Below the pieces are notes generated by a model. The model ran no database searches, was not told the DNA's origin, and saw only the letters and a list, made by a program, of their open reading frames with translations. This document shows, piece by piece, positions 12,554 through 34,072 of a stretch of 38,363 bases of DNA; the first letter of the stretch is position 1, and each line of letters begins with the position of its first letter. This DNA is from Deltaproteobacteria bacterium (GTDB lineage: Bacteria > Desulfobacterota > WTBG01 > CAIYCZ01 > CAIRTM01): NCBI GenBank assembly GCA_024276465.1, contig JAJRXD010000151.1, positions 1-38,363 of the forward strand, in the 5' to 3' direction. The translations under genes and the position numbers were made by a program.

Positions 12554-12706
12554 CTTCACAAAATATATTGAAAAGGCTGAACAAAAATCTGAATTTCAGG
12601 TCAATGCCAGCCTTTTTTTACAATATAGTGATATTTAAAATGTTTTCATATTTCCAGAGAAAGCATTTTGACATGCCTGACAGTAAATTTAAAATCAAAT
12701 ATTATT

Positions 12707-17000: not shown

Positions 17001-20000
17001 GTACTTAAAGCTAAATCAGATGATCATGAAAAACCTCAACCCGTTCCAATTCAGAGGATTAATCGCAAAAAAAAGCTTCCTCTTTCCCAGGCACAAAAAA
17101 GATTATGGTTTCTTTCACAGTTAGAGCCTGAAAATCCGGCATTCAACCTGGCCCTGGGCCTGCAGATAGAGGGGCCACTAAAAGCAGATCTGCTTTGCAA
17201 TGCCATTGATGCTGTTGTGCAGAGACATGAATCTCTCAGAACCACGTTCATTAACGACCAGGGCGATCCCAGGGCTGTTATAAACAATCACACGAGCATT
17301 ATGCTTAACAAAATTGATGCAACTGAGATGGGGCATGACGAAAAAGCATCTTTACAGATAATCAGGCAGGCTGCTGCCCGTCCATTTGATCTTGAGAAAG
17401 GCCCTCTATACCGCTGGTTTTTAGTGCACCTGAAAAAAGATTTCCACATTTTAGTTTATATTGTTCATCATATTGTGTTTGACGGCTGGTCTCTGGGCAT
17501 TGTTTTGAAGGAGATAGCTGCTCAATATGATGCACTGCAGCAGAGCAAAGAACCTCTTTTGCCGGAATTAAACATACAATATGTTGATTACTCTGCCTGG
17601 CATGAAGAATGGCTTAAAACCCGAAATTTAACTGGCCAGATGGAGTATTGGAAAAAACAGCTGGCAGGCGAGCTCCCTATAATGCAGCTTCCCTTTGACC
17701 GGCCCAGGCCAAAAATCCCTGACTATAAAGGTTCTCTCGAATTTTTCGAGCTGTCCGAAAACCTGTCAAATCAATTAAGGGTTCTTTCAAAACAGGAAGG
17801 TTCAACCTTTTTTATGATTTTTCTAACTGCATTCAAAATTCTGCTTTTCAGATATTCAGGCCAGGATGACATAATTACAGGGACACCTGTTGCTAACCGA
17901 AACCATGTCGAGTTTGAAAAGCTTGTCGGTCTGTTCATTAACATGCTGGTCCTGCGCTCTGATCTTTCAGGAAACCCTACATTTAAGGAATTACTGGCAC
18001 GAGTACGAAAAACATCCCTGGACGCTTTTTCCCATCAGACATTTCCTTTTGAGCAGCTGGTTGATCTCCTGAAACCATCTCGCGACATGAGTCATCACCC
18101 GCTGTATCAGGTGATGTTTGCGTTTCATAATTTTTCATTCCCACCTGTAGCACTGAAGGATGTTAAATTTCAAAATATCATAATAGACAGGGGCTCTTCC
18201 CAGGTAGATCTCTGGATGTATCTGTGGGAGGAGAATAATATTTTCAAAGGAGCTGTGGAATACAGCACTGAGCTGTTTGACCAGGCTACAATATCACGAA
18301 TGACCGGGCATTATTTGAATCTTTTAAACGCTGCAGCAGATGATCCCCTGCAAAAAATTGACAGCTGCCCCCTGCTGAATGAGAAGGAAAAAAAACATAT
18401 CCTTTTTGAGAGAAACAAAACTCAATTAGAGGTCCCTGAAACATCCAGCTTTCACCAGCTGTTTGAAAACCAGGCAAACCGCCTCCCGCACAATAATGCT
18501 GTAACTTTTGGAAACAGGGAGATTACATATCAGGAGCTTAATAAGCGCTCCAGCCAGCTTGCCAATTATCTTCGAGATCTGGGGGTGGGCACAAATACTC
18601 TAATTGGCATATATGTCGAACGGTCAATCGAAATGATCGTGGGAATCCTTGGAGTTTTAAAAGCAGGGGGTGCCTATGTTCCTCTGGATCCGACCTACCC
18701 ACAGGAACGAATTGCTTTTATAATTGAAGATACAGACATGCCGGTTATTTTAACCCTGGACCATATGGAAACTGCTCTTCCTGAAAACAGGTCAGCCATA
18801 CTTTGCCTTGATGCAGACTGGAATGAAATTGCCAGTGAAAAAGACAACAACCCCGAACATTCTACAAAAGGCAATAATCTGGCATATGTTATTTATACCT
18901 CAGGGTCAACAGGCAGGCCCAAAGGTGTGAAGGTACAGCATCGGGCAGTTGTCAATTTTTTATCCAGCATGAGGCAGGAGCCTGGTTTTGCTGAAGATGA
19001 TGTTATGCTGGCTGTAACAACGCTCTCTTTTGACATTCATGTGCTGGAAATCTTTCTGCCCCTTATCACAGGAGGCCGGGTTGTTATTGCTGATCGCGAA
19101 ACAGCCTCAGATGGCAGCCTGCTTCTCAGAGCCCTGCAGGACTCCCGGGCAACAGTCATGCAGGCCACGCCCGGCACCTGGCGGCTCCTGCTGGCAGCCG
19201 GCTGGCAAGGCACTCGGAATTTAAAGCTGCTTTGTGGAGGAGAAGCTTTCCCTCTGGACCTCTTAAAGGAGCTTCTTCCGCGTGCAGGAAGCGTATGGAA
19301 CATGTACGGCCCCACAGAGACAACTGTCTGGTCAACCTGCTTCCGCATCACAGACAGCCAAAGCCCCATTCTGATCGGACGCCCGATTGCCAACACGCAG
19401 GTTTATATTCTTGACCGCCTGATGCAGCCGGTACCTGTGGGGGTTCCCGGAGAGCTTTACATAGGGGGTAATGGCGTAACACCTGGCTATTTAAACCTTC
19501 CTGATCTGACGCAAAAGCAGTTTTTGCCTGATCCTTTCAGTCTGGATCAGGGGGCACGCCTCTACAAAACCGGTGATCTGGCCCGCTTCCGCCCTGATGG
19601 AAATCTTGAATATCTGAGCCGGATTGATACCCAGGTCAAAGTCAGGGGCTTCCGTATTGAGCTTGGAGAAATAGAGAGCGTTCTGAACGAGCACCCTTCA
19701 GTGGACAAATGCGCTGCAGCGGTCTGCGAAGAGCAGCCCGGGGATATGCGCATGGTTGCCTTCATTGTTCCAAAGGCAGGCATGGATCCAACAGCCTCAA
19801 ACCTGAGAAAGCACCTTCAAAACAGGCTTCCTGACTACATGATCCCCCAGCATTTTGTTCTGCTTGAGGAGCTGCCCCTGACCCCTGCCGGAAAGATCGA
19901 CCGTAAGAACCTTCCTGTAGCAGAAATCAGGGAATCCCCGGCACCTGCAGAGTATGCTGCGCCGCGAAATAAAACAGAAGAATTGCTCACAGGCATCTGG

Positions 20001-21014
20001 CAGAATATTACAGGCCTGAGTTGCATCGGGATCCACGATGATTTTTTTGATATTGGAGGTCATTCCCTGCTTGCTGTTCGATTGTTTTCTGCAATTGAAA
20101 AAAAGCTTGGTGTAAGGCTGCCCCTCGCACTGCTGTATCAGGCATCAACCATTGAACAGATGTCACAGTTTATAAAAGAGAAAAACTGTCAGGCTCCATG
20201 GTCGTCTCTTGTACCCATAAAGCCTGGTGGATCAAAGCCACCCCTCTTCCTTATACACGGTGCTGGCGGCAATGTTCTTCTCTACCGCCAGCTCGCTCAC
20301 CACCTTGGTTCAGATCAGCCAGTGTTCGGACTGCAGGCAAAAGGCCTTGACGGGAAAAAGCCGTTTCACACAAGCATTGAAGATATGGCTTCTGAATATA
20401 TTTCTGAAATACAAAACCTGCAGCCCCACGGACCCTATTTTCTCGCGGGCTACTGCATGGGTGGCACAATCGCCTATGAAATGGCCTGCCAGCTTGAAAA
20501 AAGCCACCACAAAACAGCACTGGTTGCAATGTTTGACACTTATAACGGGTGGGAAAAATCAAGTTTGCCCAAGCTGATTTATCATAACTGTCAGCGCATT
20601 GCATTTCACATCCTTAATTATAATATGATAGACAAAGCTGGCCGAAAAGCGTTTTTGAAAGAAAAAGCACTGGAATCAAAACGCAGGGTTTTTCTCAGCC
20701 TCGAAGTCAAACTTACGCAGCTGTTACATAAAGCAAAGCTTCGCTCCAGACACCCGCTTGTTATTATGGATCATATAAATGATGCTGCTGCTTATAACTA
20801 TTTTCCCAGGCCATACCCTGGGAAAATAGATGTTTTTAAAACTATTTCAGCATACTCGGGGTATGAGGACCCACTTCTTGGCTGGGGCAGCAATCTGACA
20901 GGCAGCATTGAAGTTCACCAGCTTAATGTATATCCAGCCGGGACTCTTAATGAGCCTTTTGTTGCTGAGCTTGCATCAAAGCTCAGAGACTGCCTGGATA
21001 GAGCCAGGTTATAA
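14010..21014 (+). CDS. Hybrid PKS-NRPS: KS-AT-ACP-C-A-PCP-TE
   Basis: The 2334-residue protein holds: KS (about 4-430; Cys174, His310 in HGTGT, His350 in NIGH), AT (about 525-850; GHSIGE with Ser622, HAFH at 718-721 as in malonyl-selective ATs), carrier (Ser963 in GGDS), C domain (about 1020-1450; HHIVFDG, His1154, Asp1158), A domain (about 1480-1960; YTSGSTGRPKG, GPTET), PCP (Ser2019 in GGHS) and TE (about 2063-2330; GYCMGG, Cys2149). No KR, DH or ER is present. By alignment to PheA I read the A-domain pocket as D-I-L-A-L-G-M-V-W plus the usual Lys, closest among remembered codes to glycine (DILQLGLIWK). The TE has Cys where Ser is usual, and Pro2309 where the catalytic His normally lies. 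The KS starts at residue 4 with no N-terminal docking coil. It should extend an acyl chain by malonyl and then an amino acid, leaving a beta-keto group. Confidence 0.92.
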   Translation: MEKIAIIGMAGRFPGAGSVGQLWENVKNSVEALTEFSDKELLESGVSQSLIDNPDYVKSRFILKNAEMFDAAFFGMSPRESECTDPQHRIFLETAWEALESAGYDPEAYSGSIGVFAGCGMNQYLLQNLIANHRALNSMNERQTQVCSDKDFLSTRVSYKLNLKGPSLDIQTACSTSLVAVHIACQNLLDYQCDMALSGGANVQLPRVGGYLYSDGDMRSPDGHCRAFDAAANGTAFGDGVGIVVLKRLQDALEDRDTILAVISGTAINNDGAHKAGFSAPSIDGQATVISMAHEMAALDPEAITCIEAHGTGTALGDPIEIAALTKAFRRSTNKKGYCAIGTVKANIGHLDAAAGVAGLIKTVLSIYHKQIPPNINFNNPKPELRLEASPFYVNREIKEWKANAQPRCAGVSSFGVGGTNAHAVVEEAPMPVPADRGGEWQLLTFSARTEVSLGKASDNLLEHLEQNQDIILADAAYTLQTGRRHFEYRCTVLCTDRDSAISAIKNRDATRVHTGQAVSSKTPKVFMFTGQGSQYAGMGLELFENEACFRDVIDYCSEVLTPLLNMDLRSLIFKSKPIDNNSTNILNQTNIAQPALFMIEYALAKLWKKHGVKPDAMIGHSIGEYTAACFSGVFSLDEALKLVVLRGALMQQQAFGSMLSVALSEDSVLPYLNDDIEIAALNSPESSVLSGETEKIQLLEQVLKKDGINFFRLHTSHAFHSRIMEPVLEHFERAFDNINLKNPEIPFISNLTGDWITPSQATSPAYWADHLRKTVRFKDGIKKLLKDSNRIFIEAGPGNTLCSLVKQSERFFNSHDNTGKIHVIQSLRHPRQQFSDTGLFLQSLGKAWLAGAKINWLDLYKNEIRYRIPLPTYPFEHKRFWLEPDSLIKKNRSSPCKISNEQTSTSNETSGNAFTLSADDLQSGAEKTCNHTVQTVTSIWQDLLGINNIDSDSNFFDLGGDSVWASQVLLRISDKTGITLSLKEMFDNPTINSLARVLKAKSDDHEKPQPVPIQRINRKKKLPLSQAQKRLWFLSQLEPENPAFNLALGLQIEGPLKADLLCNAIDAVVQRHESLRTTFINDQGDPRAVINNHTSIMLNKIDATEMGHDEKASLQIIRQAAARPFDLEKGPLYRWFLVHLKKDFHILVYIVHHIVFDGWSLGIVLKEIAAQYDALQQSKEPLLPELNIQYVDYSAWHEEWLKTRNLTGQMEYWKKQLAGELPIMQLPFDRPRPKIPDYKGSLEFFELSENLSNQLRVLSKQEGSTFFMIFLTAFKILLFRYSGQDDIITGTPVANRNHVEFEKLVGLFINMLVLRSDLSGNPTFKELLARVRKTSLDAFSHQTFPFEQLVDLLKPSRDMSHHPLYQVMFAFHNFSFPPVALKDVKFQNIIIDRGSSQVDLWMYLWEENNIFKGAVEYSTELFDQATISRMTGHYLNLLNAAADDPLQKIDSCPLLNEKEKKHILFERNKTQLEVPETSSFHQLFENQANRLPHNNAVTFGNREITYQELNKRSSQLANYLRDLGVGTNTLIGIYVERSIEMIVGILGVLKAGGAYVPLDPTYPQERIAFIIEDTDMPVILTLDHMETALPENRSAILCLDADWNEIASEKDNNPEHSTKGNNLAYVIYTSGSTGRPKGVKVQHRAVVNFLSSMRQEPGFAEDDVMLAVTTLSFDIHVLEIFLPLITGGRVVIADRETASDGSLLLRALQDSRATVMQATPGTWRLLLAAGWQGTRNLKLLCGGEAFPLDLLKELLPRAGSVWNMYGPTETTVWSTCFRITDSQSPILIGRPIANTQVYILDRLMQPVPVGVPGELYIGGNGVTPGYLNLPDLTQKQFLPDPFSLDQGARLYKTGDLARFRPDGNLEYLSRIDTQVKVRGFRIELGEIESVLNEHPSVDKCAAAVCEEQPGDMRMVAFIVPKAGMDPTASNLRKHLQNRLPDYMIPQHFVLLEELPLTPAGKIDRKNLPVAEIRESPAPAEYAAPRNKTEELLTGIWQNITGLSCIGIHDDFFDIGGHSLLAVRLFSAIEKKLGVRLPLALLYQASTIEQMSQFIKEKNCQAPWSSLVPIKPGGSKPPLFLIHGAGGNVLLYRQLAHHLGSDQPVFGLQAKGLDGKKPFHTSIEDMASEYISEIQNLQPHGPYFLAGYCMGGTIAYEMACQLEKSHHKTALVAMFDTYNGWEKSSLPKLIYHNCQRIAFHILNYNMIDKAGRKAFLKEKALESKRRVFLSLEVKLTQLLHKAKLRSRHPLVIMDHINDAAAYNYFPRPYPGKIDVFKTISAYSGYEDPLLGWGSNLTGSIEVHQLNVYPAGTLNEPFVAELASKLRDCLDRARL

Positions 21015-21039
21015 TAATAAAAAGAATAATGATGGTGCT

Positions 21040-21059
21040 GCTGGCCGAAAGGAACCAGC
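21040..21059 (+). terminator. GAAA-tetraloop hairpin after the PKS-NRPS gene
   Basis: GCTGGCC-GAAA-GG-AA-CCAGC forms a stem with an AA bulge 25 nt after the stop codon. It has no following U-tract, so it could be an RNA-stability hairpin or weak terminator only. Confidence 0.35.
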
Positions 21060-21158
21060 CTGAGGTACTTTCAAAAGACCACAGAGCTCTCAGAGACAAT
21101 TGGGTTGACGGGTTGCGAGTTTCGTGTTGCGGATTTAAGGCGTGAGCCTTTTATTTTT

Positions 21159-21233
21159 ATGAAACCTTTACAGGTTAACTCCGGATTAATGAAATCTTTA
21201 CAGGTTAACTCCGACAGATTAACTCCGGGTTTG
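21159..21233 (+). repeat. 30-bp tandem repeat, two and a half copies
   Basis: The unit beginning ATGAAACCTTTACAGGTTAA at 21159 repeats at 21189 with one or two changes, and a third partial copy (GATTAACTCCGG) follows near 21217. It lies about 40-110 bp upstream of the radical SAM start. The GGTTAACTCCG core could be a regulator-binding half-site, or a slippage product. Confidence 0.6.
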
Positions 21234-21270
21234 TTTTGACAATACACTGGATTTTTTAAGGACAAAAAAC

Positions 21271-22638
21271 ATGCGAGTATTGCTGATTCAATCACATTTA
21301 GGCAGAAGGAGTTCTCCTGTCATTTTTCCCATAGGGCTCTGTTATGTTGCAACAGCCTTGACCAGGCAAACTGTAAAAATCCTGGATCTAAACCTGTGGG
21401 ACTTGTCTCATTCCTGTAAAATGCTTGAACAGTGCCTGCTGGAATTCAAGCCGGATATAGTAGGGGTTTCTATCAGGAATATTGATACCTGCATCAGGAC
21501 TGATGTTTTTTTGCATTTTCAAACAATTATACCAACGATCCAATTGATAAAAAAAACAGATCATAAGATCAGGATACTGGCTGGCGGACCTGGATTCACA
21601 ATGTTTGCACAGGATATAATGGAGCGGATTCCTGAAATAGATTTTGGAATTTATATGGAGGCAGATGAATCTGTTTCAGATCTGATAGAGAACCTTGATT
21701 CACCTGAGAACGTCAAAGGAGTTTTTTTCCGCAAAGATAAAAGCATACATTTTACAGGCTTAAGAAACCTGCCTGATTTTGAAAATCTCCCCATGCCCGG
21801 AAGAGACGCTGATTTGATTGATATTAAGCCCTACATTGCAGCTGACTCCGGCAGCATCGGCATTCAGACCAAGCGTGGCTGCGTGCTGAAATGCACATAC
21901 TGTAACTACCCATTTTTAAGTGGCAACCAATTGCGGCTCAGACCACCCAAAAATGTTGTTGATGAAATAGAATACCTTATGGGTTTAGGGGTAAAATCAT
22001 TTTCTTTTGTAGATAATATTTTTAATGTTCCATTGAGTCATTCCATGGAGATCTGCAGGGAAATTGTCAGAAGAGATCTTGATGTAAAATGGTGTGCCTG
22101 GTATGAAATAAAAAATGCAACAGAGGAGCTTTTGAGCCTTGCAAAAAAGGCGGGCTGCTACCAGATGGAATTTTCGCCGGATGCAGCCACAAACAGGGGG
22201 CTGTCAAGCCTGAACAAGGGTATTAGCGTAAAAGATATTAAAAAGGTTCAAAAAATCATAAGAGGTATGAGTGGCATTAAAGCAAAATACAACTTTTTTT
22301 TCTCACTGCCAGGAATAGGATTACAGGACAAGATTAAAACCCTGGCAGCCTTTTTTGGATTGTTAGTACGTCTGTTTTCAGGCAAAGGTGGGGGCGGGGG
22401 CAGAATAGGCTGGATTCGTATAGAGAAAGACACCCGGATATATAAAAGTGCTCTTGAAGAGGGGGTGCTTACAGAAAAAATCGATCTGATGCCAAACAGC
22501 AAAAAAGATTTGTTGAAATTATTTTATTTTAACAAACCTTATAAATATCTTGATTATTTTGTTTTATATTTTATGAAAATTACTGAACAGATCATTAAAC
22601 CAGCTGGTAAATTTTTACAATCCCTTCTTCGGTCATAA
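21271..22638 (+). CDS. B12-binding-type radical SAM enzyme
   Basis: The 455-residue protein has an N-terminal Rossmann-like B12-binding-type domain (about 1-140: MRVLLIQ, FKPDIVGVSIRN, ILAGGPGFT), though no DxHxxG is evident. A radical SAM core follows with CVLKCTYC (Cys204, Cys208, Cys211) for the 4Fe-4S cluster, and then TIM-barrel strands (FSFVDNIFN, YQMEFSPDAAT, KYNFFFSLPGIG). Members of this broad family catalyse methylations at unactivated carbons, ring contractions, cyclisations or epimerisations. It is preceded by AAGGAC at a suitable distance and by a TTTTGACAATA element. Its position between the two halves of the PKS/NRPS locus points to tailoring of the product. A polyglycine patch (KGGGGGR) near residue 374 is unusual. 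Confidence 0.85.
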   Translation: MRVLLIQSHLGRRSSPVIFPIGLCYVATALTRQTVKILDLNLWDLSHSCKMLEQCLLEFKPDIVGVSIRNIDTCIRTDVFLHFQTIIPTIQLIKKTDHKIRILAGGPGFTMFAQDIMERIPEIDFGIYMEADESVSDLIENLDSPENVKGVFFRKDKSIHFTGLRNLPDFENLPMPGRDADLIDIKPYIAADSGSIGIQTKRGCVLKCTYCNYPFLSGNQLRLRPPKNVVDEIEYLMGLGVKSFSFVDNIFNVPLSHSMEICREIVRRDLDVKWCAWYEIKNATEELLSLAKKAGCYQMEFSPDAATNRGLSSLNKGISVKDIKKVQKIIRGMSGIKAKYNFFFSLPGIGLQDKIKTLAAFFGLLVRLFSGKGGGGGRIGWIRIEKDTRIYKSALEEGVLTEKIDLMPNSKKDLLKLFYFNKPYKYLDYFVLYFMKITEQIIKPAGKFLQSLLRS

Positions 22639-23302
22639 CAGTACTTTGTGCCACGAGACAAGCCCGGGATCTGCAACAGATACATCAGGCCCCTGGTTTC
22701 CCGCTAAAAACATGTGGGAATGACAAAGGGGTATGGCTTTTCCCTTTTTTCACCATCATGTCCGGAGTTTATCCACGCCTGTCGGGATGGTTCACTTCTT
22801 TTTCTTTTCACCACGAAGAACACGAAGAAAAAACTTTGAGATTGCCGGAGCCTGTCCCGATTTATCGGGACAGGCTCCGGCAATCTTTTACATTTAAAGC
22901 AATAATGCTTTCTTAGCTATTCTTATCACTTTTTAATTTGGAATATTCAACAGTTTTGTTATAGTTTTCAATTGCATCATAGTTCACCACCTGCAAACCT
23001 GCTTTTGCAGAAAAATCTTGCTGTAACAGGCTGAAACCAGGTAACAGCTTATTATTTAATTGTGCTGAAATTCACTGCCAAAACTTTTTTAAAAAAGCAC
23101 CGGAATTTATTAATTTACGCACAGATATTGCCGAGTTATAATTGACGTGGTGTTTGATAGAAACAATGACAAAAAATTAATAAATACAGTTGAAAATCTG
23201 CAATGACTCCTGAAGCAGTGCAGTTTGTGGATGTAGCTGAAAGGCTCACCACTTAAGCACCTGAAAACTGCATATTGACAATAACTCTATACAGATACTT
23301 CC
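22639..23302. other. 664-bp gene-free region between radical SAM and MT-B
   Basis: The first 200 bp contain repeat scraps (GGGAATGACAAAGGGG, then CACCACGAAG at 22810 in reverse orientation) and the 44-nt palindrome listed separately. On the minus strand a 52-codon open stretch ending at about 22918 has no start codon and no family I know. A TTGACAATA element sits at 23275, 28 nt before the next start. I see no further gene. Confidence 0.6.
22841..22884. repeat. Perfect 44-nt palindrome, possible terminator
   Basis: The arms ATTGCCGGAGCCTGTCCCGA and their exact reverse complement give a 21-bp perfect stem around a TT loop, extendable by two more pairs on each side. It equals two head-to-head copies of the 'GTCCCGATAA...GGCTCCGGCAAT' end of the tandem-array unit. 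On the plus strand it is followed by CTTTTA, so it could terminate transcription from the radical SAM gene. Confidence 0.7.
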
Positions 23303-24547
23303 ATGGAACAAACCGGATCATACCAGCTCCAGACCTTTACAGCTAATGCCGGCAGCGAGGTCAAGCGATTAAAAGCCCAGGTGGATCTCTTCTGGAAAAA
23401 AGAGATCAAATTCTACCGCATGTTTGGCCTTAAAGATTCCATGACTGTTCTGGAATGCGGAAGCGGCCCTGGATATCTAATTGAAAACCTTTCAGCTGAA
23501 TTCCCGAACAGCAGCTTTACTGCCCTTGAAGTGGATTCTTATCTGTTCGATATATTGAAGCAAAACGCTGCCATGAATGGTCAGAAACGCTATGATGTCA
23601 TTCAGCAATCCATCATGAGCACCGGCCTTCCGGACAACACCTATGACTTTGTAATCACCCGTCTGGTGCTTGAGCACCTGCCGGATCCGATTGGCGCGGC
23701 AAGGGAACTTTACAGAGTCCTGAAGACTGGTGGCAAAGCAGTATTTGTAGCCAATGACTTTGACTTTCATTTAAGAACCTGTCCTGATATCCCTGAGCTG
23801 AAAAAACTCTACGATGCATATTGCCGCTCCAGGCAGGCCGGGGGCGGCAACCCTAAAATCGGACGTGAACTGCCGGGAATCCTCAAGCAGGCAGGATTTG
23901 TTAATATTGATATGGAGATAGCATGCGCCCACAGCGAAATAACCGGAGACAGGCTGTTTCTGGAATCTGAAGGCATTGGCATATCATCACAGCTTGTAAA
24001 GGAGGGCTATTTGACACGCGAAGCCCTGGATGAAATTGCTGTTCAGTGGCATGCGCTGCTGGGCAGTGACAACCATGCTTTTTACAGGCAGATTTTCATG
24101 GCAGTTGGTGAGAAAAACCCCCGGGCCATGCCGAAAAATTTTATTAAAAAACCTGAACAATCAGTTAGACACAATTACAATAAATCTCTTGCTGCTGATA
24201 TTAAAACCATTGAACAACCCCGAAAACTTGAGCTGATTGAAAAATATTTGTGCGAGCAGGTTGCAGGTGCTCTGGATGTTGAGGTGTCCGGGCTCAGGTC
24301 TGACCTTTCGCTTATAGACCAGGGCTTTGATTCCCTGTCAGCTGTTGAGCTGAAAAATATTATCAAGTCAGAGACCGGGGCAGATATTTCAGTTGCTGAA
24401 TTCTTTGAAGGTCGCTGCATTAAAGATATATCCAGGCTTCTGCTTGACAGCCTGATGAAAAACAACAAGAAAACAGAGCGCATTTCAGCTGATTCCAGAA
24501 ACAATCATGCCCGGAAAGAAAAAAAAGATTCTGATATCTGGGAATAA
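23303..24547 (+). CDS. Class I SAM methyltransferase fused to a carrier domain (MT-B)
   Basis: The 414-residue protein is a paralogue of MT-A: motif I VLECGSGPGYL, GLPDNTYDF, TRLVLEHLPDP, GNPKIGRELPGIL. The methyltransferase part runs through about residue 265. The C-terminal carrier (about 310-385) differs from MT-A's: it carries GFDSLSAVEL with attachment Ser344, a PKS-type ACP signature, rather than an NRPS-like GGxS. A charged, mostly disordered linker separates the domains. The stop is 8 nt from the next start, with AAGGGGA in between, so it is cotranscribed and translationally close to the C-FkbH gene. It probably methylates a carrier-bound acyl intermediate, or presents a starter for the second half-cluster. 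Confidence 0.85.
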   Translation: MEQTGSYQLQTFTANAGSEVKRLKAQVDLFWKKEIKFYRMFGLKDSMTVLECGSGPGYLIENLSAEFPNSSFTALEVDSYLFDILKQNAAMNGQKRYDVIQQSIMSTGLPDNTYDFVITRLVLEHLPDPIGAARELYRVLKTGGKAVFVANDFDFHLRTCPDIPELKKLYDAYCRSRQAGGGNPKIGRELPGILKQAGFVNIDMEIACAHSEITGDRLFLESEGIGISSQLVKEGYLTREALDEIAVQWHALLGSDNHAFYRQIFMAVGEKNPRAMPKNFIKKPEQSVRHNYNKSLAADIKTIEQPRKLELIEKYLCEQVAGALDVEVSGLRSDLSLIDQGFDSLSAVELKNIIKSETGADISVAEFFEGRCIKDISRLLLDSLMKNNKKTERISADSRNNHARKEKKDSDIWE

Positions 24548-24555
24548 GGGGAAAT

Positions 24556-27500
24556 ATGAAGGCTGCGGATATTATCACTGTTGCCAGTGCAAACCAGATA
24601 GAGCTTTGGGTCGAAAGCAGCAGCCTTAAGTTCCGGGCTCCTAAAGGTGCTTTGACGCCGGAACTGCAAAAACTGTTCAGGGATAACAGGGACAGCCTGA
24701 TTGCAGAGCTGACGAAACCGGCACAGGCAGTAAAAGCCCGAATACCTTTATCCTGTAATCAGCAGTCACTGTGGTTCCTCCATCAAATGGCACCTGAATC
24801 CCCGGCCTACAATGTTGCTGCCGCCTGTCAGGTCCTGTCCCCTGTAAATGCCGATGCTGTTAAATTTGCTCTGAAAAGCCTTGTTTCCAGGCACCCAATA
24901 CTCAGAACCACCTATACTCTTTCAGAGGAAAGCAAAACAGTATTCCAGGAGGTCCACAGCACAAAAGATATTGCCTTTGAGCACATTGACGCTGCTGCCT
25001 GGGATGACATTGAGCTGAACAAAAGAGTTATTGCCAGTTATAAAAAACCATTTGACCTGACAGCAGGACCCGTATTGCGGTTTCAGATTTTCAGCCGCAA
25101 TAATAATAATCACCTTTTTCTTATTACCCTGCACCACATTGCCTGCGATGCTCATTCCATACATATTCTGCTTGAAGATTTTATCTCTTTTTATGAAGCC
25201 GGCCCGGGCAAAACAGCTGTTCATCCTGAGCCAGTTTCATGCAAATATACTGATTATATCAGCCATCAGGCTGAAATGCTGAGGGGCCCTCAAGGTGCCC
25301 GCCTTCTGAATTACTGGAAAAAGAAGCTGCACGAAGCACCAGCCAGCCTTGATATGCCACTTGATCATAAAAGGCCTTCAGTACAAAGCCATAACGGATC
25401 TTCAGTCTGTTTTAACATTGAAGGCACGCAGTATGACAAGGTAAAAGAGTGTGCAAAAACCTGCAACACAACAGTATATGCCCTGCTGCTGTCTGTGTTT
25501 CAGCTGCTTCTGTCAAGGATGTCAGGGCAGAAAGATATCTGCATCGGCACACCTGTTGCCTGCCGCACAAGAAAGGAATATCAAAATGTTTGCGGATATT
25601 TTGTCAACCCTGTTGTCATTCGCACCAGGGTCGATCTGTCAATGACATTCAGAGAATATCTTGGCCATACCAGCAAAACAGTCTTTGAATCCTTAGACTA
25701 CCAGGAATATCCTTTTGCACTGCTTGTAGAAAATCTTGAAATCAGCCGCCAGCCCGGCACTGCCCCTGTTTTTCAGGTTATGTTTAACATGCTTAAGCGC
25801 AGGATGCTCGGCGCTGCAGCAGACTTTTTATGCCCTTCAAACAGTAACAGCCCTGTGGCATTTGGCCCGCTCAAAATCCTTCCCTACCCTGTTCACCAGC
25901 AGGAGGGCCAGTACGATATGACTCTTGAAATAATTGACACTGAAAAATATCTTTTTTCTGTTTTAAAGTACTGCACGGATATTTTCACTTCTGAAACAGC
26001 TTACAGGATTGTCAGCGACTACAGGTTAATCCTTTCCCGAATTCTTGAACATCCGGATGAGAAGGTTTCTGTTTTTGTCAGCCAGTCTGACAATTTCAAA
26101 ACCAGCCCTCCTCCTGTCAAAAAAACCTTGGCAATTGCTGCAACCTTTACTGCCGAGCCAGTAGCACCTGCCCTCAGCTTCTGGACAGAAAAACTTGCCA
26201 TTAATACTGAAATAGTATTTTCCCGGTACAGCCAGGTGTTCCAGCAGCTGCTGGACCCTGCCGGCATCTTCTCAAAAAACAGTAATGGTATAAATATTAT
26301 TCTTGTTCGCCTTGACGACTGGATGCAAACCAGATCTTCTGAGCCAGGCAGTGCTGAATGTATCTCTGAGGCAGGTATTAAAAGCATAGGACACAATGCT
26401 CATGAATTCCTGCATGCAGTTGAATCAGCATCAAAAAAAATGACGGCTCCACTTTTAATTCTGTTTTGCCCACCCTCGCCAGAACGTATGCTTGTTAAAG
26501 CTTATCAGTCAGCTGTCAGCAGGATTGAAAATGAATTGTGCCGGGATTTAAGCTCCATAAATGGTGTGTTCCCGGTCCCGGGCTCTGAAATCCTTGAGAC
26601 CTGTCCGGTTGACGAATATTACGAGCCTCTGGGGGAAAAAATCGGTCATATCCCCTATACAGATCAGTTCTTTGTCTCTGCTGCAACCCTGATAGCGAGA
26701 AAAGCTTTCACTGTTTTCAGCGAGCCCTGTAAAGCAATTGTCCTTGACTGCGACCAGACACTCTGGAGCGGGGTTGTCGCAGAGGATGGTGCACTGGGGG
26801 TCACAGTAGACAGGGACAGGAGATGGTTCCAGAAATTTATCTTATCACAGCACAATGCCGGCAGGCTGATCTGTATCTGCTCTAAGAACAATGCTGCTGA
26901 TGTACATGAGGTTTTTGACACTCACCCGGACATGATCCTGAAGCGATCTCACCTGGCAGCAGCAAAGATCAACTGGTCCCACAAATCAGTTAACTTGAGA
27001 GCTCTTTCAAAAGAACTGAATATCGGCCTTGACAGCATAATATTTATTGATGACAGCCCTTTGGAATGCGCTGAGGTCGAGGCAGGCTGTCCCGGAGTTT
27101 TTACAGTTCAGATGCCGGAATCTGATGTTGACATTAAAAAATTTTTTAAAAACCTGTGGATTTTTGATCACCTGAAAATTACCAGAGAAGACACAATACG
27201 ATCTGAGTATTATAAAAACTCTCAGGAGCGCAAGCAGTTCCTGAATGAGACCCTGTCTTTTGCTGATTTTATAAACAGGCTTGAGCTGGATATCAGGATT
27301 TCCGAGCTTCAGAAATCCGATATCCCAAGGGTTTCCCAGCTTACCCTGAGGACCAACCAGTTTAATCTCAGGACAATAAGGCGCAATGAAAACCAGATTG
27401 AATCTCTTTGCCGCCAGGAATCAATAGTGTCCCGCGTTGTGAATGTAAGGGATCGATTTGGTGATTACGGGCTTGTAGGGGTAATTATTGCTGAAAAAAA

Positions 27501-28320
27501 ATCAGGTCATCTTGATGTTGATACTTTTCTCCTGAGCTGCAGGGCCCTGGGACGAGGGGTTGAGCACTGCATGCTGGCCCATATTGGAAAAATCGCCCTG
27601 CAGGAAAACCTTGATCAAGTATGCCTGCATTACAGGACAACAGAAAGGAATCAGCCTGTCAGAAATTTTTTAGATGAAGTCGCACAAAATTTTAAAACCA
27701 CAAAACATGACGGCCTTCTCTATGAAATACCTTCCCCTGCAGCTGAAAAAACAGTTTTCAGGCCAAAAGAATCAGCGCCTGATACAGCAGCCCCTGAAAG
27801 CAAAGATCCGGCATACAACGCTGGTTCCAGGGATTCAGACAGAACATCCCGGCGTGCTTTTATGATTGAAATTGCGACCAGTCTGTTTGATGTGAAGAGG
27901 ATTCAAAGCCGTATCACATTAGAAACCTCAAACTTGAAAAATTGCCATAAAAAAACAGCTGGGTCCGTCCCTGGCAGAGTGCTTCAAAACAAGACCGAAT
28001 CCCGAATTGCAGAGGTCTGGAAAAAATACCTTAATCTGGATCTGATCAGTGCTGATGCCAGTTTTTTTGACCTCGGCGGCCATTCAACACTGATTCCTCA
28101 AATTGTTATTGACCTGATAAAGATATTCAATACTGACATTACCATTGTGGATATGTTTCAATATCCAACAATTACTGCGCTTGCCAGGCACATTAATAAC
28201 AATGCTGCACCGTCCCCTGATAAAGAAAAGGAAAAAGTCAGGATGCAAAAATCAGCAATCAACCGGCAAAAGCTCCGGACAGTAATGCTAAGGGCCAGAA
28301 TGCAAAGAAAACAATTATGA
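24556..28320 (+). CDS. TubC-docking / condensation / FkbH-like HAD / carrier protein
   Basis: The 1254-residue protein starts with a TubC_N-type docking domain (about 1-58: ANQIELWVESSSLKFRAPKG). A condensation domain follows (about 70-500: LSCNQQSLWFLHQMAPESPAYN, active site His193-His194-I-A-C-Asp198-Ala199, so the usual DG is DA). Next is an FkbH/HAD-IIIC region (about 523-1080) with D731-C-D733-Q-T-LW, FIDDSPLECAEVEAGCPG, the TLRTNQFNLRTIRR motif and a GNAT-like tail. The C-terminal carrier has Ser1177 in GGHS, followed by a basic tail. There is no adenylation domain. FkbH relatives make glyceryl-carrier units from 1,3-bisphosphoglycerate in some pathways; for the NRPS-fused subfamily with DCDQT the reaction is not known to me. 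The stop overlaps the next start as ATGA. Confidence 0.88.
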   Translation: MKAADIITVASANQIELWVESSSLKFRAPKGALTPELQKLFRDNRDSLIAELTKPAQAVKARIPLSCNQQSLWFLHQMAPESPAYNVAAACQVLSPVNADAVKFALKSLVSRHPILRTTYTLSEESKTVFQEVHSTKDIAFEHIDAAAWDDIELNKRVIASYKKPFDLTAGPVLRFQIFSRNNNNHLFLITLHHIACDAHSIHILLEDFISFYEAGPGKTAVHPEPVSCKYTDYISHQAEMLRGPQGARLLNYWKKKLHEAPASLDMPLDHKRPSVQSHNGSSVCFNIEGTQYDKVKECAKTCNTTVYALLLSVFQLLLSRMSGQKDICIGTPVACRTRKEYQNVCGYFVNPVVIRTRVDLSMTFREYLGHTSKTVFESLDYQEYPFALLVENLEISRQPGTAPVFQVMFNMLKRRMLGAAADFLCPSNSNSPVAFGPLKILPYPVHQQEGQYDMTLEIIDTEKYLFSVLKYCTDIFTSETAYRIVSDYRLILSRILEHPDEKVSVFVSQSDNFKTSPPPVKKTLAIAATFTAEPVAPALSFWTEKLAINTEIVFSRYSQVFQQLLDPAGIFSKNSNGINIILVRLDDWMQTRSSEPGSAECISEAGIKSIGHNAHEFLHAVESASKKMTAPLLILFCPPSPERMLVKAYQSAVSRIENELCRDLSSINGVFPVPGSEILETCPVDEYYEPLGEKIGHIPYTDQFFVSAATLIARKAFTVFSEPCKAIVLDCDQTLWSGVVAEDGALGVTVDRDRRWFQKFILSQHNAGRLICICSKNNAADVHEVFDTHPDMILKRSHLAAAKINWSHKSVNLRALSKELNIGLDSIIFIDDSPLECAEVEAGCPGVFTVQMPESDVDIKKFFKNLWIFDHLKITREDTIRSEYYKNSQERKQFLNETLSFADFINRLELDIRISELQKSDIPRVSQLTLRTNQFNLRTIRRNENQIESLCRQESIVSRVVNVRDRFGDYGLVGVIIAEKKSGHLDVDTFLLSCRALGRGVEHCMLAHIGKIALQENLDQVCLHYRTTERNQPVRNFLDEVAQNFKTTKHDGLLYEIPSPAAEKTVFRPKESAPDTAAPESKDPAYNAGSRDSDRTSRRAFMIEIATSLFDVKRIQSRITLETSNLKNCHKKTAGSVPGRVLQNKTESRIAEVWKKYLNLDLISADASFFDLGGHSTLIPQIVIDLIKIFNTDITIVDMFQYPTITALARHINNNAAPSPDKEKEKVRMQKSAINRQKLRTVMLRARMQRKQL

Positions 28321-31300
28321 ACCAGATTGTTAACAGCACAGAAGATGCTCTTGACGGGATTGCCATAGTCGGCCTTGCCAGCCGTTTCCCTGGCTCTGAT
28401 AATACGGAAAAATTCTGGGAAAATCTTGTCAATGGTGTTGATTCAATTACAACATATACTGATGAAGAGTGCCTGCGCTCCGGTGTTCCGGAATACATCC
28501 TCAACAACTCAGGGTTTGTGAAAAGAGGCGGAACAATGCATGGCCCGGAGCTTTTTGATGCTGCCTTTTTCGGCTACAGCCCTGGCGAAGCCCGCCACAT
28601 CGACCCGCAGCAGCGCATTTTCCTTGAGTGCGCATGGGAGGCAATAGAGAGTGCTGGATATGATCCTGAAAAATATGAAGGCACCATTGGCGTATATGCA
28701 GGCTGCGGTATTAACAACTATCTTCTTAAAAACCTTCTCTCAACATCACCCCAGATGGAATCTGTTGTTAATCCCATGATATTCATCGGCAATGACAAGG
28801 ATTTCCTGACCACCCGCGTTTCATACAAGCTCAATCTGACCGGCCCGAGCATTGTCATACAGACAGCCTGCTCAACAGGACTTGTTGCGATTCAGCTGGC
28901 ATGTCAGGGTCTTCTGACATATCAGTGTGACATGGCCCTGGGCGGGGCAGTTTCTCTTCAAACTCCCCGAATGAAAGGTTACCTGTACACAAAAGGCCAG
29001 ATACTGTCATCAGATGGATACTGCCGTGCTTTTGATAAAGATGCCTCCGGAACCATCTTTGGCGAGGGCGTTGGCATTGTTGTGCTTAAACGGCTTGAGG
29101 ATGCCCTGTCTGACAGGGACACCATCTATGCTGTTATAAGGGGAATCGCTGTAAACAACGACGGTGCAGACAAGGTCGGCTACACAGCCCCGGGCGTTGA
29201 GGGTCAGGCAGCAGTAATTGCAACAGCTCAGGCCATGTCAGGTGTTACAGCTGATGAGATCAGCTATGTAGAGGCTCACGGAACCGGAACTCCCCTTGGT
29301 GACCCTGTAGAAATTTCAGCCCTGACCAGAGCTTTCCGTGAAACCACAGACAATACAGGATATTGCGCAATCGGATCAGTTAAACCTAATATCGGCCATC
29401 TTGATGTTGCTGCTGGAATCGCGGGGCTCATTAAGGTCGCCCTTGCTTTGAAAAACAATAAAATTCCACCATCTATTTACTTTCGCGAACCAAACCCGGA
29501 GCTTAAACTCAAAAGCAGCCCGTTTTATGTAAATGACAGGCTGACAGAATGGACGGGCAACGGCAAGCCGCGATTTGCAGGCATAAGCGCTTTTGGCATG
29601 GGCGGAACAAATGCCCACGCTGTTCTTTCTGAAGCCCCGCATTATGATACATATATCTCTGCACGCCCCTGTTCCATTTTACTGCTTTCAGCAAAAACAG
29701 AAAGCGGCCTTGAAAAAGCAACCAGGAATTTATCTTCCTTTTTCAGGCGCCATCCTGAAACAAATCTCTCTGACGCTGCGTTTACGCTCCAGGTCGGCCG
29801 CCGGCATTTCAAGCACCGTCGCTTTATTGTCTGTGACCTGATTGAAACTGCGATTAAATATTTAGATGAGCCAGACGCAAAGCAGGCATGCACCGGGGTT
29901 GTGGAGCAGCCTGACCGCAGGGTTGTTTTCATGTTTACCGGCCAGGGCTCCCAGTATGTTAACATGGGAAAGGAGCTTTATGAAAAACTGCCTTCTTTCC
30001 AGAAAGACCTTGATCACTGTGCTGCTGTACTGAAGCCGTTTCTAAACCTTGACCTGCGCAATCTCATCTACCCGGATGAGACAGGCATGGACAAAGCAAA
30101 AGACCTTTTGAACGAAACATACATTACCCAGCCAGCTCTTTTTACAATTGAGTACTGCCTTGCAAAGTACTGGATGAGCATCGGCATTGTACCAATCTCA
30201 ATGATCGGACACAGCATCGGTGAATTCGTCGCAGCCTGCCTTGCAGGCGTTTTTAACCTTGAGGACGCTCTTTCGCTTGTTGCCCTTCGCGGCAAACTGA
30301 TGCAGGAGCAGGAGCGCGGGTCAATGCTTGCTGTATCACTCCCTGAAAACAGGCTGCAACCCCTGCTCAATGATGAACTTTGCATCTCTGTTATCAATGC
30401 CCCCTCACAGTGCGTAGTGTCAGGCTCAGATGAAGCGATTGAAAAATTTCAGGCCCAGCTCAGGCAAGGGATACCGGGAAAAAGCACTGAAATACGCACG
30501 CAGAAGCTGCATACATCTCACGCGTTCCACTCAAAAATGATGCAGCCGGCTGTGGAACCCCTGATGAAATCAATCCTTAAAACAGATCTTCATCCCCCTT
30601 CCATACCCTTTGTTTCAAATATCAGCGGCACATGGATAACATCCGACCAGGCCACAGACCCGGCATACTGGGCAGATCACCTGAGAAAAACAGTCAGGTT
30701 TTCAGACGGAATTAAAACACTCATGGCAGACTCTGACAAAATCATGCTTGAAATCGGACCCGGCAGCACCCTTGCGTCACTTGCACGCCTTCATTTCAGT
30801 TCCGGCACTGACTGCGTTTCTCTGTCCTCACTTCGCAACCCTGAACAGCATGAGTCAGACTATGCATTTATAACATGCACCCTTGGACGACTCTGGATAG
30901 AGGGTGTTGAAATTGACTGGGCCCGCTATTACCATGATGAGCAGCGCAGACGAATTCCCCTTCCCTGCTATCCCTTTGAGCATAAAAAATACTGGGTCAA
31001 AGCCAAAAACATATCCGTCAACAGCAACGACACTGACTTTGATGATGAATGTGCGGAAGCAGAAGACAGATCCCTGCAAAACCAAAGTCAGAAAGCCCAG
31101 AACCCTCCCCATGACGATGTTGAAGCAGAGCTTGCCTCCATATGGGAAAAGGCTCTTGGAATCAAAAACATTCCGAGGGATGCCGACTTCTATGAGCTTG
31201 GAGGACACTCACTGCTGGCTGCTCAGATTTTTATGGACATTGAGACTGCTTTCGGCAAAAACATACCACTGTCAACCCTGTTTCAATCCCCAACAATTGC

Positions 31301-32201
31301 ACTCCTGGCTGATGTCCTGAAAGAGGATAACACCACATCGTTCTGGTCCTCACACCTTGTGCCGATCCGCAAAAACGGCACAAAGCGCCCGCTTTTCCTT
31401 GTGCACGGCGCAGAGGGCAATGTGCTGCTCTACCGCCTGCTGACACAGCACCTGGGTGATGATCAGCCAGTGTACGGCCTGCAGTCAGCCGGCCTTGACG
31501 GGCAGGAGAAATTCAATCCTGATTTCAAGCACGTTGCTGCAAAATATATTAAAGAGATTAAAACAGTGCAGCCCGAAGGGCCTTATCTGCTGGGGGGCTA
31601 CTGCCTGGGCGGAACAATTGCACTTGAAATGGCTCAGCAGCTGACAGCCAGTGGTGAAAAGGTCAATTTCCTCGGCATGATTGAGATTTATAATATTCAA
31701 TCCCTGAACTGGCCCCTGCCCTTTCACATCAGGGCCTTCAACAGCCTGCTGAATATCTGCTACCATGTTCTGAACCTTTTTTCATCAGAGAATAATATGA
31801 AGCTTGAATTTTTCAGGCAAAAGGCTCGGGTTGAGATAAGCCGCCTGAAGGTTTCGCTGAAAATAGCTCGTACCAGACTGCTGAAACTCCTTGGAATATC
31901 CCCGGAAGTTCCATATTACCACCTGAGGGTCGATGAGGCCTATGATCAGGCTCTGACCGAATATTATCCTGAAAAATATCCCGGAAGAATAACTCTTTTC
32001 GGAGCTAAAACCCTGCCTGCCGGGTTTACTGACCCGATATATTACGGATTTGGCGGGCTTGCTGAAAAAGGTGTTTGCCTGCAGATAATCCCTGCATATC
32101 CGAGAGGAACCCTGGTTGAACCTTATGTCAGGATCCTGGCAGAAAAGATTAACCAGTGCATTAAGCAATCAGAAGCAGACACACTGAAATCTCCAGACTA
32201 A
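28317..32201 (+). CDS. PKS module KS-AT-ACP-TE
   Basis: The 1294-residue protein has KS (about 13-440; Cys185 in ACSTG, His321 in HGTGT, His361 in NIGH), AT (about 535-860; GHSIGE with Ser633, HAFH at 735-738, malonyl-type), carrier (Ser965 in GGHS) and TE (about 1008-1285; GYCLGG with Cys1096). Again there is no KR, DH or ER, so a beta-keto product is expected before release. The TE resembles that of the 14010 protein: Cys nucleophile, and the YPxGTLxEP end with Pro1262 where His is usual. Its acid position reads MIEIYN (Glu) against MFDTYN in the other. ATGA overlap with the C-FkbH gene implies coupled translation. The 3' end overlaps, convergently, the open frame of the broken YdcF-like gene. 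Confidence 0.92.
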   Translation: MNQIVNSTEDALDGIAIVGLASRFPGSDNTEKFWENLVNGVDSITTYTDEECLRSGVPEYILNNSGFVKRGGTMHGPELFDAAFFGYSPGEARHIDPQQRIFLECAWEAIESAGYDPEKYEGTIGVYAGCGINNYLLKNLLSTSPQMESVVNPMIFIGNDKDFLTTRVSYKLNLTGPSIVIQTACSTGLVAIQLACQGLLTYQCDMALGGAVSLQTPRMKGYLYTKGQILSSDGYCRAFDKDASGTIFGEGVGIVVLKRLEDALSDRDTIYAVIRGIAVNNDGADKVGYTAPGVEGQAAVIATAQAMSGVTADEISYVEAHGTGTPLGDPVEISALTRAFRETTDNTGYCAIGSVKPNIGHLDVAAGIAGLIKVALALKNNKIPPSIYFREPNPELKLKSSPFYVNDRLTEWTGNGKPRFAGISAFGMGGTNAHAVLSEAPHYDTYISARPCSILLLSAKTESGLEKATRNLSSFFRRHPETNLSDAAFTLQVGRRHFKHRRFIVCDLIETAIKYLDEPDAKQACTGVVEQPDRRVVFMFTGQGSQYVNMGKELYEKLPSFQKDLDHCAAVLKPFLNLDLRNLIYPDETGMDKAKDLLNETYITQPALFTIEYCLAKYWMSIGIVPISMIGHSIGEFVAACLAGVFNLEDALSLVALRGKLMQEQERGSMLAVSLPENRLQPLLNDELCISVINAPSQCVVSGSDEAIEKFQAQLRQGIPGKSTEIRTQKLHTSHAFHSKMMQPAVEPLMKSILKTDLHPPSIPFVSNISGTWITSDQATDPAYWADHLRKTVRFSDGIKTLMADSDKIMLEIGPGSTLASLARLHFSSGTDCVSLSSLRNPEQHESDYAFITCTLGRLWIEGVEIDWARYYHDEQRRRIPLPCYPFEHKKYWVKAKNISVNSNDTDFDDECAEAEDRSLQNQSQKAQNPPHDDVEAELASIWEKALGIKNIPRDADFYELGGHSLLAAQIFMDIETAFGKNIPLSTLFQSPTIALLADVLKEDNTTSFWSSHLVPIRKNGTKRPLFLVHGAEGNVLLYRLLTQHLGDDQPVYGLQSAGLDGQEKFNPDFKHVAAKYIKEIKTVQPEGPYLLGGYCLGGTIALEMAQQLTASGEKVNFLGMIEIYNIQSLNWPLPFHIRAFNSLLNICYHVLNLFSSENNMKLEFFRQKARVEISRLKVSLKIARTRLLKLLGISPEVPYYHLRVDEAYDQALTEYYPEKYPGRITLFGAKTLPAGFTDPIYYGFGGLAEKGVCLQIIPAYPRGTLVEPYVRILAEKINQCIKQSEADTLKSPD

Positions 32202-32812
32202 CGCATATAGATAACCAAATAAAAACTTGAGGGTCACCTTTAAGCCTCTAAAAGATCTCCACCAGTAAACAGGGTCATAATGTTTGATTTTACACGATAT
32301 AATGCCAACATTAATGTCTTCACCTAAAGTTTTTTTGTAAATATGATAAGTTTTTCTGCCATGGGGACCGCCGGTGAAAACATTAACAGATTTTATTTTA
32401 TTCTGTTTTAACCAGGCTTTTACAGCACAGGCAGCATTAAATGTTTTGTGCTATTTACAGGGAGGAGCTGGAACAGCAAAAACAATCGCAGGGTCTATGC
32501 CGCGCTGGCACAGCTGGTGCCTGCACTCTTCAGCATAGCTTTTTAATTCCATATGACCTGGCCGTGCTGAAAAATTTTTTTGCGCCCGGTTGTTACAACA
32601 GTTAAATATTTGCCTTTTCGGATTTCGCGAACAGCATCATCAAGCATGTAATCAAAAATCCATCCTTCCACAACCAGGGTTTGCGCATCTATGGGGCGGG
32701 TAATGGACAGGAATGAATGTATTGATATCAATGCCGGCACCAGTAATTTATATAAGGACCAGGGGAGTAATAAAAATGCCAGAATTATAGCTGTTTTTTT
32801 AGCTGTGGGCAT
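32169..32812 (-). pseudogene. YdcF/SanA-like (DUF218) protein, frameshifted and interrupted
   Basis: The first frame (32812-32543) encodes an N-terminal membrane helix and TLVVEGWIFDYMLDDAVREI, then VTTG, typical of the YdcF/ElyC/SanA family. About 32553-32560 the frame shifts. The continuing frame reads MELKSYAEECRHQL...IVFAVPAPPCK, meets an in-frame TAG at 32453-32451, and then goes on with AVKAWLKQNKIKSVNVFTGGPHGRKTYHIY...DPVYWWRSFRGLK to a stop at 32169. Two independent lesions in one recognisable protein argue for a pseudogene rather than a sequencing slip. Such genes are common in envelope and exopolysaccharide loci. The 3' end overlaps the PKS stop region. Confidence 0.7.
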
Positions 32813-33140
32813 TTTACTGTTTTTTCAGATTTTGCAGATAAAGAAAATCTTACCACAAGTACGGCAAAAATAGTGTTGTTCTCTGAAACAGTATAAAAAA
32901 CATGACTCTGTTGTCAAGCAAACAACCAGGCACAGAGGGACAAAGTTGGACACTCACTGAGGAAAAATTCTGGATGCAGGTTAAAGCAGAAGGTTTTTCT
33001 TCGTGTGCTTCGTGGTGATATGAAAAACATGCACTGCCTGTCATTGTCCCGATAAATCAGGACGGCAGTCTCAGGGCAAACATATAGGCACAGAGGGACA
33101 AAGTTGGACAGGCACAGAGGAAAAAACGGGTTACAAGTTA
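32813..33140. repeat. Gene-free repeat-rich stretch
   Basis: AGGCACAGAGGGACAAAGTT occurs at 32928 and again at 33086. Between them are a CTTCGTGTGCTTCGTGG module (about 33000-33022) and a GTCCCGAT/ATCAGGAC half-palindrome at 33046. No credible gene was seen. Confidence 0.6.
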
Positions 33141-33380
33141 CCAGGAGTTTCCCCGAAAAACAGGGATATGACCTTACAGTTTATGATGCCCATCAGGCGG
33201 GCAGGCCTGTCCTGCCGTAGTTTAAAAAAACGAAGGCTGATCGTCCGACTGATTGTCTGTCCCGTTATCCAACGAGGATCTTCGACGGATATTTGTAATA
33301 ATTAATTTTTCTGCGTGTGTCAGCGTGTGTCTGCGGCTAATATTCTTTTTCTTCGTGATCTTCGTGTGCTTCGTGGTAGT
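33141..33380 (+). repeat. Copy 1 of a ~240-bp direct repeat
   Basis: It begins CCAGGAGTTTCCCCGAAAAA, runs through CGGGCAGGCCTGTCCTGCCG (itself an inverted repeat) and CCAACGAGGATCTTCGACG, and ends in a TTCGTG module. A near-identical copy in the same orientation starts at 37703. Confidence 0.8.
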
Positions 33381-33397
33381 ATTAAAAAAAGATTTTT

Positions 33398-33426
33398 CAC
33401 CACGAAGCTCACGAAGTACACGAAGG
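33398..33426 (+). repeat. Left 29-bp inverted repeat flanking the GxxExxY gene
   Basis: It starts CACCACGAAGCTCACGAAG and ends 4 nt before the ATG at 33431. Its reverse complement matches 33804-33832 at 27 of 29 positions. It also faces a forward module at 33352-33377 across a short spacer, giving a second possible hairpin. Confidence 0.75.
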
Positions 33427-33430
33427 AAAA

Positions 33431-33802: not shown

Positions 33803-33803
33803 C

Positions 33804-33832
33804 CCTTCGTGCTCTTCGTGAGCTTCGTGGTG
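33804..33832 (+). repeat. Right 29-bp inverted repeat flanking the GxxExxY gene
   Basis: It starts CCTTCGTGCTCTTCGTGAG one base after the stop codon of the GxxExxY gene and ends with CTTCGTGGTG. It has the same sequence as the head of the tandem-array units further downstream. Confidence 0.75.
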
Positions 33833-34010: not shown

Positions 34011-34072
34011 TATGATCCAGCCAGGTGGACAGGCTTTTTAGAATAAATAAAAATAACTGGAACTACAATATT

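Follow-up and report, generated by a model that had tools for sequence, protein, structure and literature searches.

A condensation-FkbH-carrier gene in a deltaproteobacterial contig

We examined a 38,363-base stretch of DNA (the window) that comprises the complete contig JAJRXD010000151.1, part of a 4.1-Mb, 95% complete draft genome of a Deltaproteobacteria bacterium (GCA_024276465.1). An open reading frame (ORF) at 24556-28320 on the forward strand encodes a 1,254-aa protein made up of a TubC_N docking domain, a condensation (C) domain, a region of about 190 aa termed NEX, an FkbH domain, and a carrier (T), hereafter C-FkbH-T. Judged by its domains and motifs, this protein is probably a glycerate-incorporating, ester-forming elongation module. 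Its ATG start codon follows a leader containing GGGG. The matches to TubC_N, Condensation, FkbH, and carrier were all above curated cut-offs (Pfam, NCBIfam), and the Pfam scan of the protein gave no AMP-binding match, i.e., no adenylation (A) domain. Its parts are as follows.

24571-24705, forward strand: TubC_N, beta-hairpin docking domain (residues 6-50; Pfam PF18563, 34.8 bits, cut-off 26)
24739-26094, forward strand: condensation domain (residues 62-513, HHIACDAHS; Pfam PF00668, 299.7 bits)
26143-26715, forward strand: NEX region, the N-terminal extension of FkbH (approximately residues 530-720; from alignment and fold match)
26731-27693, forward strand: FkbH, HAD-IIIC phosphatase and acyltransferase half (residues 726-1046; TIGR01686, 284.7 bits, cut-off 146.65)
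27289-27726, forward strand: acyltransferase subdomain within FkbH, GNAT-like (residues 383-528 of the model; from AlphaFold and Foldseek)
28003-28194, forward strand: carrier (residues 1150-1213, DLGGHS; Pfam PF00550, 41.9 bits)

The TubC_N match reached 40.0 bits when the N-terminal 100 aa were scanned alone, and the HAD-IIIC model TIGR01681 also matched (55.1 bits, cut-off 35.75; NCBIfam). A preliminary description of this DNA had read the protein as a TubC-type docking domain, a C domain, an FkbH-like HAD, and a carrier without an A domain, followed by a ketosynthase-acyltransferase-acyl carrier protein-thioesterase (KS-AT-ACP-TE) protein. Pfam and NCBIfam agree with this domain order, as does Pfam with the protein that follows, and the motifs HHIACDAHS, DCDQTLW, and DLGGHS were found where the description had placed them. 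Absent from that description were the NEX region, the GNAT-like half of FkbH, the flanking methyltransferase-carrier proteins, and the make-up of the cluster as two paralogous lines.

FkbH motifs, fold, and relatives

We then aligned the window FkbH with 23 relatives. The window protein keeps the HAD motifs DCDQT, SKN, the motif-III lysine, and DD, as well as the acyltransferase motifs TNQFN, RFGDYG, and SCRALGR; the catalytic roles of individual FkbH residues are treated here as general background. Loss of key active-site residues, which the preliminary description had named as a possible objection to its reading, was thus not seen in the window protein in this 24-row alignment. Motif I reads DCD instead of DLD in the window protein, its nine most similar relatives in the alignment, and two others. 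The same motifs are kept in the FkbH of L063 (Streptomyces), which sits between 3-oxoacyl-ACP synthase III and ACP; this gene set (ketosynthase, 3-oxoacyl-ACP synthase III, FkbH, and ACP) looks like a tetronate cassette.

Residues ~530-720 of C-FkbH-T had no Pfam match. This region aligns with relatives L051, L058, L059, L061, and L048, and alignment with other FkbH proteins covers its start. The name NEX follows a description of BurF (PMC12304814; here and below, statements from cited papers draw on the parts of their text that were available). Residues 530-1060 were modeled with AlphaFold from three input sequences; the model was of moderate quality, with a mean predicted local distance difference test score (pLDDT) of 69 and a predicted template modeling score (pTM) of 0.48. 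Searched against the PDB with Foldseek, the model matched 3slr (E 8.7e-16, 362 columns), the N-terminal phosphatase part of BF1531, which comprises NEX plus phosphatase. Other matches were to MDP-1 type HAD phosphatases and to GNAT acetyltransferases, the latter at E of about 1e-5. Because of these three kinds of match, the window FkbH reads as NEX followed by a HAD phosphatase and a GNAT-like acyltransferase in the predicted structure.

A tree of 24 FkbH rows (the window and 23 of 45 matches, the others being duplicates or omitted for brevity) pairs the window FkbH with L051 from the same phylum at a support of 99/96. L051 consists of FkbH, an FkbM methyltransferase, and a carrier, and is without a C domain. 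Searching GTDB genomes with the NEX-FkbH region returned only two relatives, and a sample of the phylum yielded matches in 24 of 395 genomes, counting the window's own; besides the window, domain architecture was read for G213 and G287 among these. The latter encodes, at 471-3620 on the reverse strand of locus L058, a free-standing FkbH-carrier-thioesterase with 41% identity over NEX-FkbH.

Kinship of the condensation domain

To place the C domain, we used a tree of 51 C domains, from which rows shorter than 340 aa and duplicates had been removed beforehand. The window C domain falls in a nine-row clade with a support of 100/100. Its nearest relative by identity (38%) is in the same clade: L108 from Nostoc sp. 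ATCC 53789, which we take, from the strain and the gene order, to be CrpC of the cryptophycin producer. Both share HHIACDA; in the window motif, both active-site histidines and the aspartate are kept, and alanine replaces the usual glycine. TubC_N is present in four of six clade members checked (the window protein, presumed CrpC, L109, and L110) and absent from L101 and L102. The only presumed ester-former in the tree, which we take to be the second C domain of CrpD, sits in a different clade, among C domains that precede A domains. Such a phylogeny had been suggested in the preliminary description as a check: a firm placement in the CrpC clade was obtained, but the tree shows no ester-specific clade and so cannot distinguish domains that form esters from those that form amides.

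The C domains that precede FkbH in L048, L049, and L061 fall outside the window's clade, on long branches whose exact places are unsure, and the starred branches of the tree require at least two changes. Since the window C domain stands apart from these three, and the window FkbH pairs with L051, which has no C domain, the two trees suggest that the C-FkbH fusion of the window arose separately.

On the Niallia taxi plasmid pMEGANia, L061 (4320-11342) encodes KS-ACP-C-FkbH-T-reductase as a single protein. It looks like the module that ends BurF, but in intact form; the BurF module is supposed to have lost its phosphatase and acyltransferase parts (PMC12304814). L061 is a possible maker of a glycerate-based butenolide. 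L049 (8585-13948), from a Saprospiraceae metagenome-assembled genome, has C-FkbH followed by a thioester-reductase-like domain (NAD_binding_4), with no Pfam carrier match between them. In L048 (Flexibacter sp. ATCC 35208, 5507-12462), the order is C-A-T-C-FkbH, and a sulfotransferase ORF overlaps, recalling the FkbH-sulfotransferase pairing of suomilide.

Two paralogous lines in the window

Next, we considered the neighboring genes. Two paralogous lines are encoded in the window: MT-T to KS-AT-ACP-C-A-T-TE (line 1) and MT-T to C-FkbH-T to KS-AT-ACP-TE (line 2), where MT-T denotes a methyltransferase-carrier protein. The flanking features, as matched by Pfam, are the following.

12668-13996, forward strand: MT-T1, a paralogue of MT-T2 ahead of line 1
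14010-21014, forward strand: line 1, KS-AT-ACP-C-A-T-TE (A code D-I-L-Q-L-G-M-V-W; TE motif GYCMGG)
21271-22638, forward strand: B12-binding radical SAM protein, a possible C-methyltransferase (B12-binding and Radical_SAM; CVLKCTYC)
23303-24547, forward strand: MT-T2, class I methyltransferase with a DSL-type carrier, the presumed donor for the C domain
28317-32201, forward strand: KS-AT-ACP-TE (AT motif HAFH; TE motif GYCLGG)

MT-T1 and MT-T2 share 44% identity; between line 1 and the protein at 28317-32201, the KS-AT-ACP parts share 49% and the carrier-TE parts 40%. The A-domain module comes after the KS module in line 1; in line 2, C-FkbH-T comes before it. The code of the line 1 A domain, read by motif anchors, is one we take to specify glycine, and the HAFH motif carried by both AT domains presumably marks them as malonyl-type. 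No reductase domain was matched by Pfam in either line, the KS-AT-ACP-TE protein being without ketoreductase, dehydratase, or enoylreductase. Both TE domains have the nucleophile motif GYCxGG, i.e., a cysteine, a rarer TE nucleophile that occurs in the ring-forming TE domains of ObiF and SulM (PMC11298585). The radical SAM gene lies between the two lines, and its product scored below every listed NCBIfam equivalog cut-off.

Line 2 is tightly packed. The MT-T2 stop lies 8 bases ahead of the C-FkbH-T start, and the KS-AT-ACP-TE gene overlaps that of C-FkbH-T by 4 bases. The C-terminal tails match the type of the next partner in all three cases compared: the two proteins that precede a KS protein, MT-T1 and C-FkbH-T, have basic tails (net charges of +6 and +8, respectively, over the last 25 residues); in MT-T2, which precedes the TubC_N protein, the tail ends in DSDIWE and has a net charge of +1 over the same length. 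TubC-type docking domains are bound by short C-terminal motifs (PMC13324335).

A methyltransferase search gave matches in 320 of 395 genomes. With the two MT-T genes of the window set aside, the top listed match by E-value had 31% identity, and no kin of MT-T was found among those listed. A plasmid tblastn search with MT-T2 returned 65 records, of which none covered 80% of the query. Across the genome, AMP-binding matched eight times, and line 1 has the only A domain of the nonribosomal peptide synthetase (NRPS) type. The seven matches outside the window look like acyl- or acetyl-CoA ligases, so no fatty-acyl-AMP ligase (FAAL) is evident among the eight.

Other features of the contig and genome were also noted. 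FemAB/GNAT-like proteins are encoded on both sides of the cluster, at 8383-9450 on the reverse strand and 34025-35131 on the forward strand, the second matching the XrtA/PEP-CTERM FemAB model under its cut-off. A 904-aa protein at 9745-12459 matched the Dictyostelium CTDC repeat five times and also has an SdrD_B-like domain. The intergenic stretch at 32918-34010 contains repeat families of 38, 50, 60, and 76 nt, as well as inverted repeats, 30-34 nt long, that contain TTCGTG units. A second megasynthase locus with two ketosynthases lies elsewhere in the same genome (G000:C67, ~20719-32222; L116, L117, and L120), where a phosphopantetheinyl transferase domain occurs in an open frame of the same length (1,808 aa) as one KS.

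Comparison with known systems

The C-FkbH-T module is of a kind already known; its surroundings, with an apparent MT-T donor before it and KS-AT-ACP-TE next, are unusual. Elsewhere, FkbH domains sit inside large proteins in L060 and L065, which we take to be polyketide synthases (PKSs) of the BryA type; these have KS domains, and no C domain was matched in them. Presumed CrpC resembles the window protein in having TubC_N and then a C domain with HHIACDA, and differs in its own A domain and its assumed amide-forming role. What follows the module also varies: in the window it is KS-AT-ACP-TE, whereas vioprolide biosynthesis reportedly continues with an NRPS module.

FkbH replaces A domains in the cystomanamide and vioprolide synthetases, and an ester-forming C domain links a fatty acid to glycerate in vioprolide (PMC8949500), whose FkbH was shown to activate 3-phosphoglycerate (PMC10099666). 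Vioprolide VioA (FAAL-ACP-C-FkbH-T; PMC8949500, PMC10099666) thus shares with the window the order of C, FkbH, and T and the replacement of the A domain by FkbH. Corramycin ComK (FAAL-ACP-C-HAD-T; PMC10099666) has the same module and, like the window, a radical SAM gene in the cluster; its ComJ is proposed to C-methylate glycerate (PMC10099666). This second likeness is one of gene presence alone, and corramycin, unlike the window, goes on with a histidine-activating NRPS module. The window is marked as a variant by its presumed donor, which is a methyltransferase-carrier without AMP-binding, probably joined through TubC_N docking, in place of FAAL-ACP. Malleicyprol BurF (C-NEX-T-reductase) also places a C domain and NEX before the carrier of an alpha-hydroxy acid, and its C domain makes an ester in vitro (PMC12304814). 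BurF is a reduced form, loaded in trans and ending in a reductase, whereas the window protein has both the phosphatase and acyltransferase parts and is followed by a TE. No KS-AT-ACP-TE directly after C-FkbH-T was found described in partial, mostly open-access literature, a weak negative.

Proposed route and alternatives

Glycerate loading and ester formation appear to be the best reading of C-FkbH-T because the FkbH motifs are kept, the predicted fold combines NEX and HAD with a GNAT-like part, no amino-acid loader adjoins the gene (Pfam, 15 ORFs of at least 230 aa in the window, the scope of all ORF counts below), and vioprolide provides a precedent. What the analysis itself shows in its support is the set of domains with intact motifs, the folds as predicted, the order and coupling of the genes, and the kinship of the C domain. 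We propose with fair confidence that glycerate from 1,3-bisphosphoglycerate is placed on the module's own carrier and ester-linked to the acyl group of MT-T2. In this route, the HAD and acyltransferase parts would take D-1,3-bisphosphoglycerate from glycolysis, strip its phosphate, and put the glyceryl group onto the carrier. MT-T2, translated just ahead, would dock by its C-terminal tail to TubC_N and present an acyl chain, which the C domain would couple to a hydroxyl of the glyceryl thioester. The acyl-glyceryl chain would then pass to the translationally coupled KS-AT-ACP-TE for one malonyl extension without reduction, and the Cys-type TE would release it by hydrolysis or lactonization. 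The evidence points only weakly to this extension and release, with perhaps lactonization to a tetronic acid.

Several points weigh against this proposal. The structure model is of moderate quality, and the C-domain phylogeny lends ester formation no positive support, its nearest neighbor being an assumed amide-former. MT-T2 has no loader (acyl ligase, AT, or A) in its own protein or in a gene beside it, and its tail, judged by eye, may be a docking motif. Substrate, bond, and product are predicted from sequence and unproven.

Other readings of the locus were weighed against it. FkbH might also, or mainly, load the MT-T carriers in trans, with O-methylglycerate starting both lines and C-FkbH-T adding a second glycerate. 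FkbH and O-methyltransferases are paired in proposals for suomilide/varlaxin (O-methyltransferase-FkbH-peptidyl carrier protein-sulfotransferase) and for methoxymalonyl-ACP formation (PMC10143770, PMC13122637, PMC7489565); in addition, the closest FkbH relative, L051, has an FkbM methyltransferase and a carrier, and the window has a single FkbH for two MT-T proteins, neither with its own loader. However, cis action is expected of an FkbH that adjoins its own carrier, Pfam returned no FkbM-type match for either MT-T1 or MT-T2, and there was no match to a named O-methylglycerate enzyme; we regard trans loading as unlikely. The alanine in HHIACDA, together with the existence of FkbH domains without C in large KS-bearing PKS proteins (L060 and L065), would fit a glycerate that is loaded and never esterified, the C domain being silent or using another acceptor and the unacylated glyceryl reaching the KS as a starter. 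The intact histidine pair and aspartate argue otherwise, as do presumed CrpC, assumed to be active with the same motif, and the TubC_N domain and nearby carrier gene, which speak for a working upstream interface, leaving this reading quite unlikely. Finally, it seems very unlikely that FkbH loads some other hydroxy acid or acyl phosphate, or that it has lost part of its activity and its carrier is charged in trans, as in BurF, which retains NEX only and for which BurJ and BurH load trigonic acid (PMC12304814). Unlike BurF, the window protein has phosphatase and acyltransferase parts with all motifs, and among the 15 ORFs AMP-binding occurs in line 1 only, though no search was aimed at a BurJ/BurH-like pair.

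Two further candidates were rejected. Methoxymalonyl-ACP supply involves two dehydrogenases beside FkbH, ACP, and an O-methyltransferase, and no dehydrogenase was found among the 15 ORFs. A BurF-type C-NEX-T-reductase module does not fit a protein in which both catalytic parts of FkbH are present and a TE stands in place of the reductase.

The glyceryl-type load and the ester put forward in the preliminary description therefore hold as the best reading from sequence, but the products it had offered, tetronate-like or depside, found no support. For a tetronate of the RK-682/tetromadurin type made by a FabH-like enzyme, no 3-oxoacyl-ACP synthase III was present among the 15 ORFs, the rest of the genome not having been searched for one; a depside, being an aromatic ester, was set aside on the sole ground that no aromatic starter or aromatic PKS was seen. 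A tetronic acid formed by lactonization of the KS product is chemically possible. In a pre-assembled version of the glycerate-ester route, which we consider doubtful, the C domain would esterify the FkbH-loaded glyceryl thioester, the KS would add malonyl to the ester-bearing glyceryl, and the Cys-type TE would close the ring between the free hydroxyl and the beta-keto thioester, giving tetronic acids that bear an acyl group, or related ring lactones. Were that to hold, a tetronate-like ring would be made on the assembly line without a FabH-like enzyme.

If the proposed glycerate-loading, ester-forming role is correct, glycerate esters from C-FkbH-T modules can pass to a ketosynthase, and C domains would have been fused to FkbH more than once. 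The two paralogous lines, with an amino-acid module (its A code presumably for glycine) and a glycerate module at different places, would represent a natural experiment in module placement.

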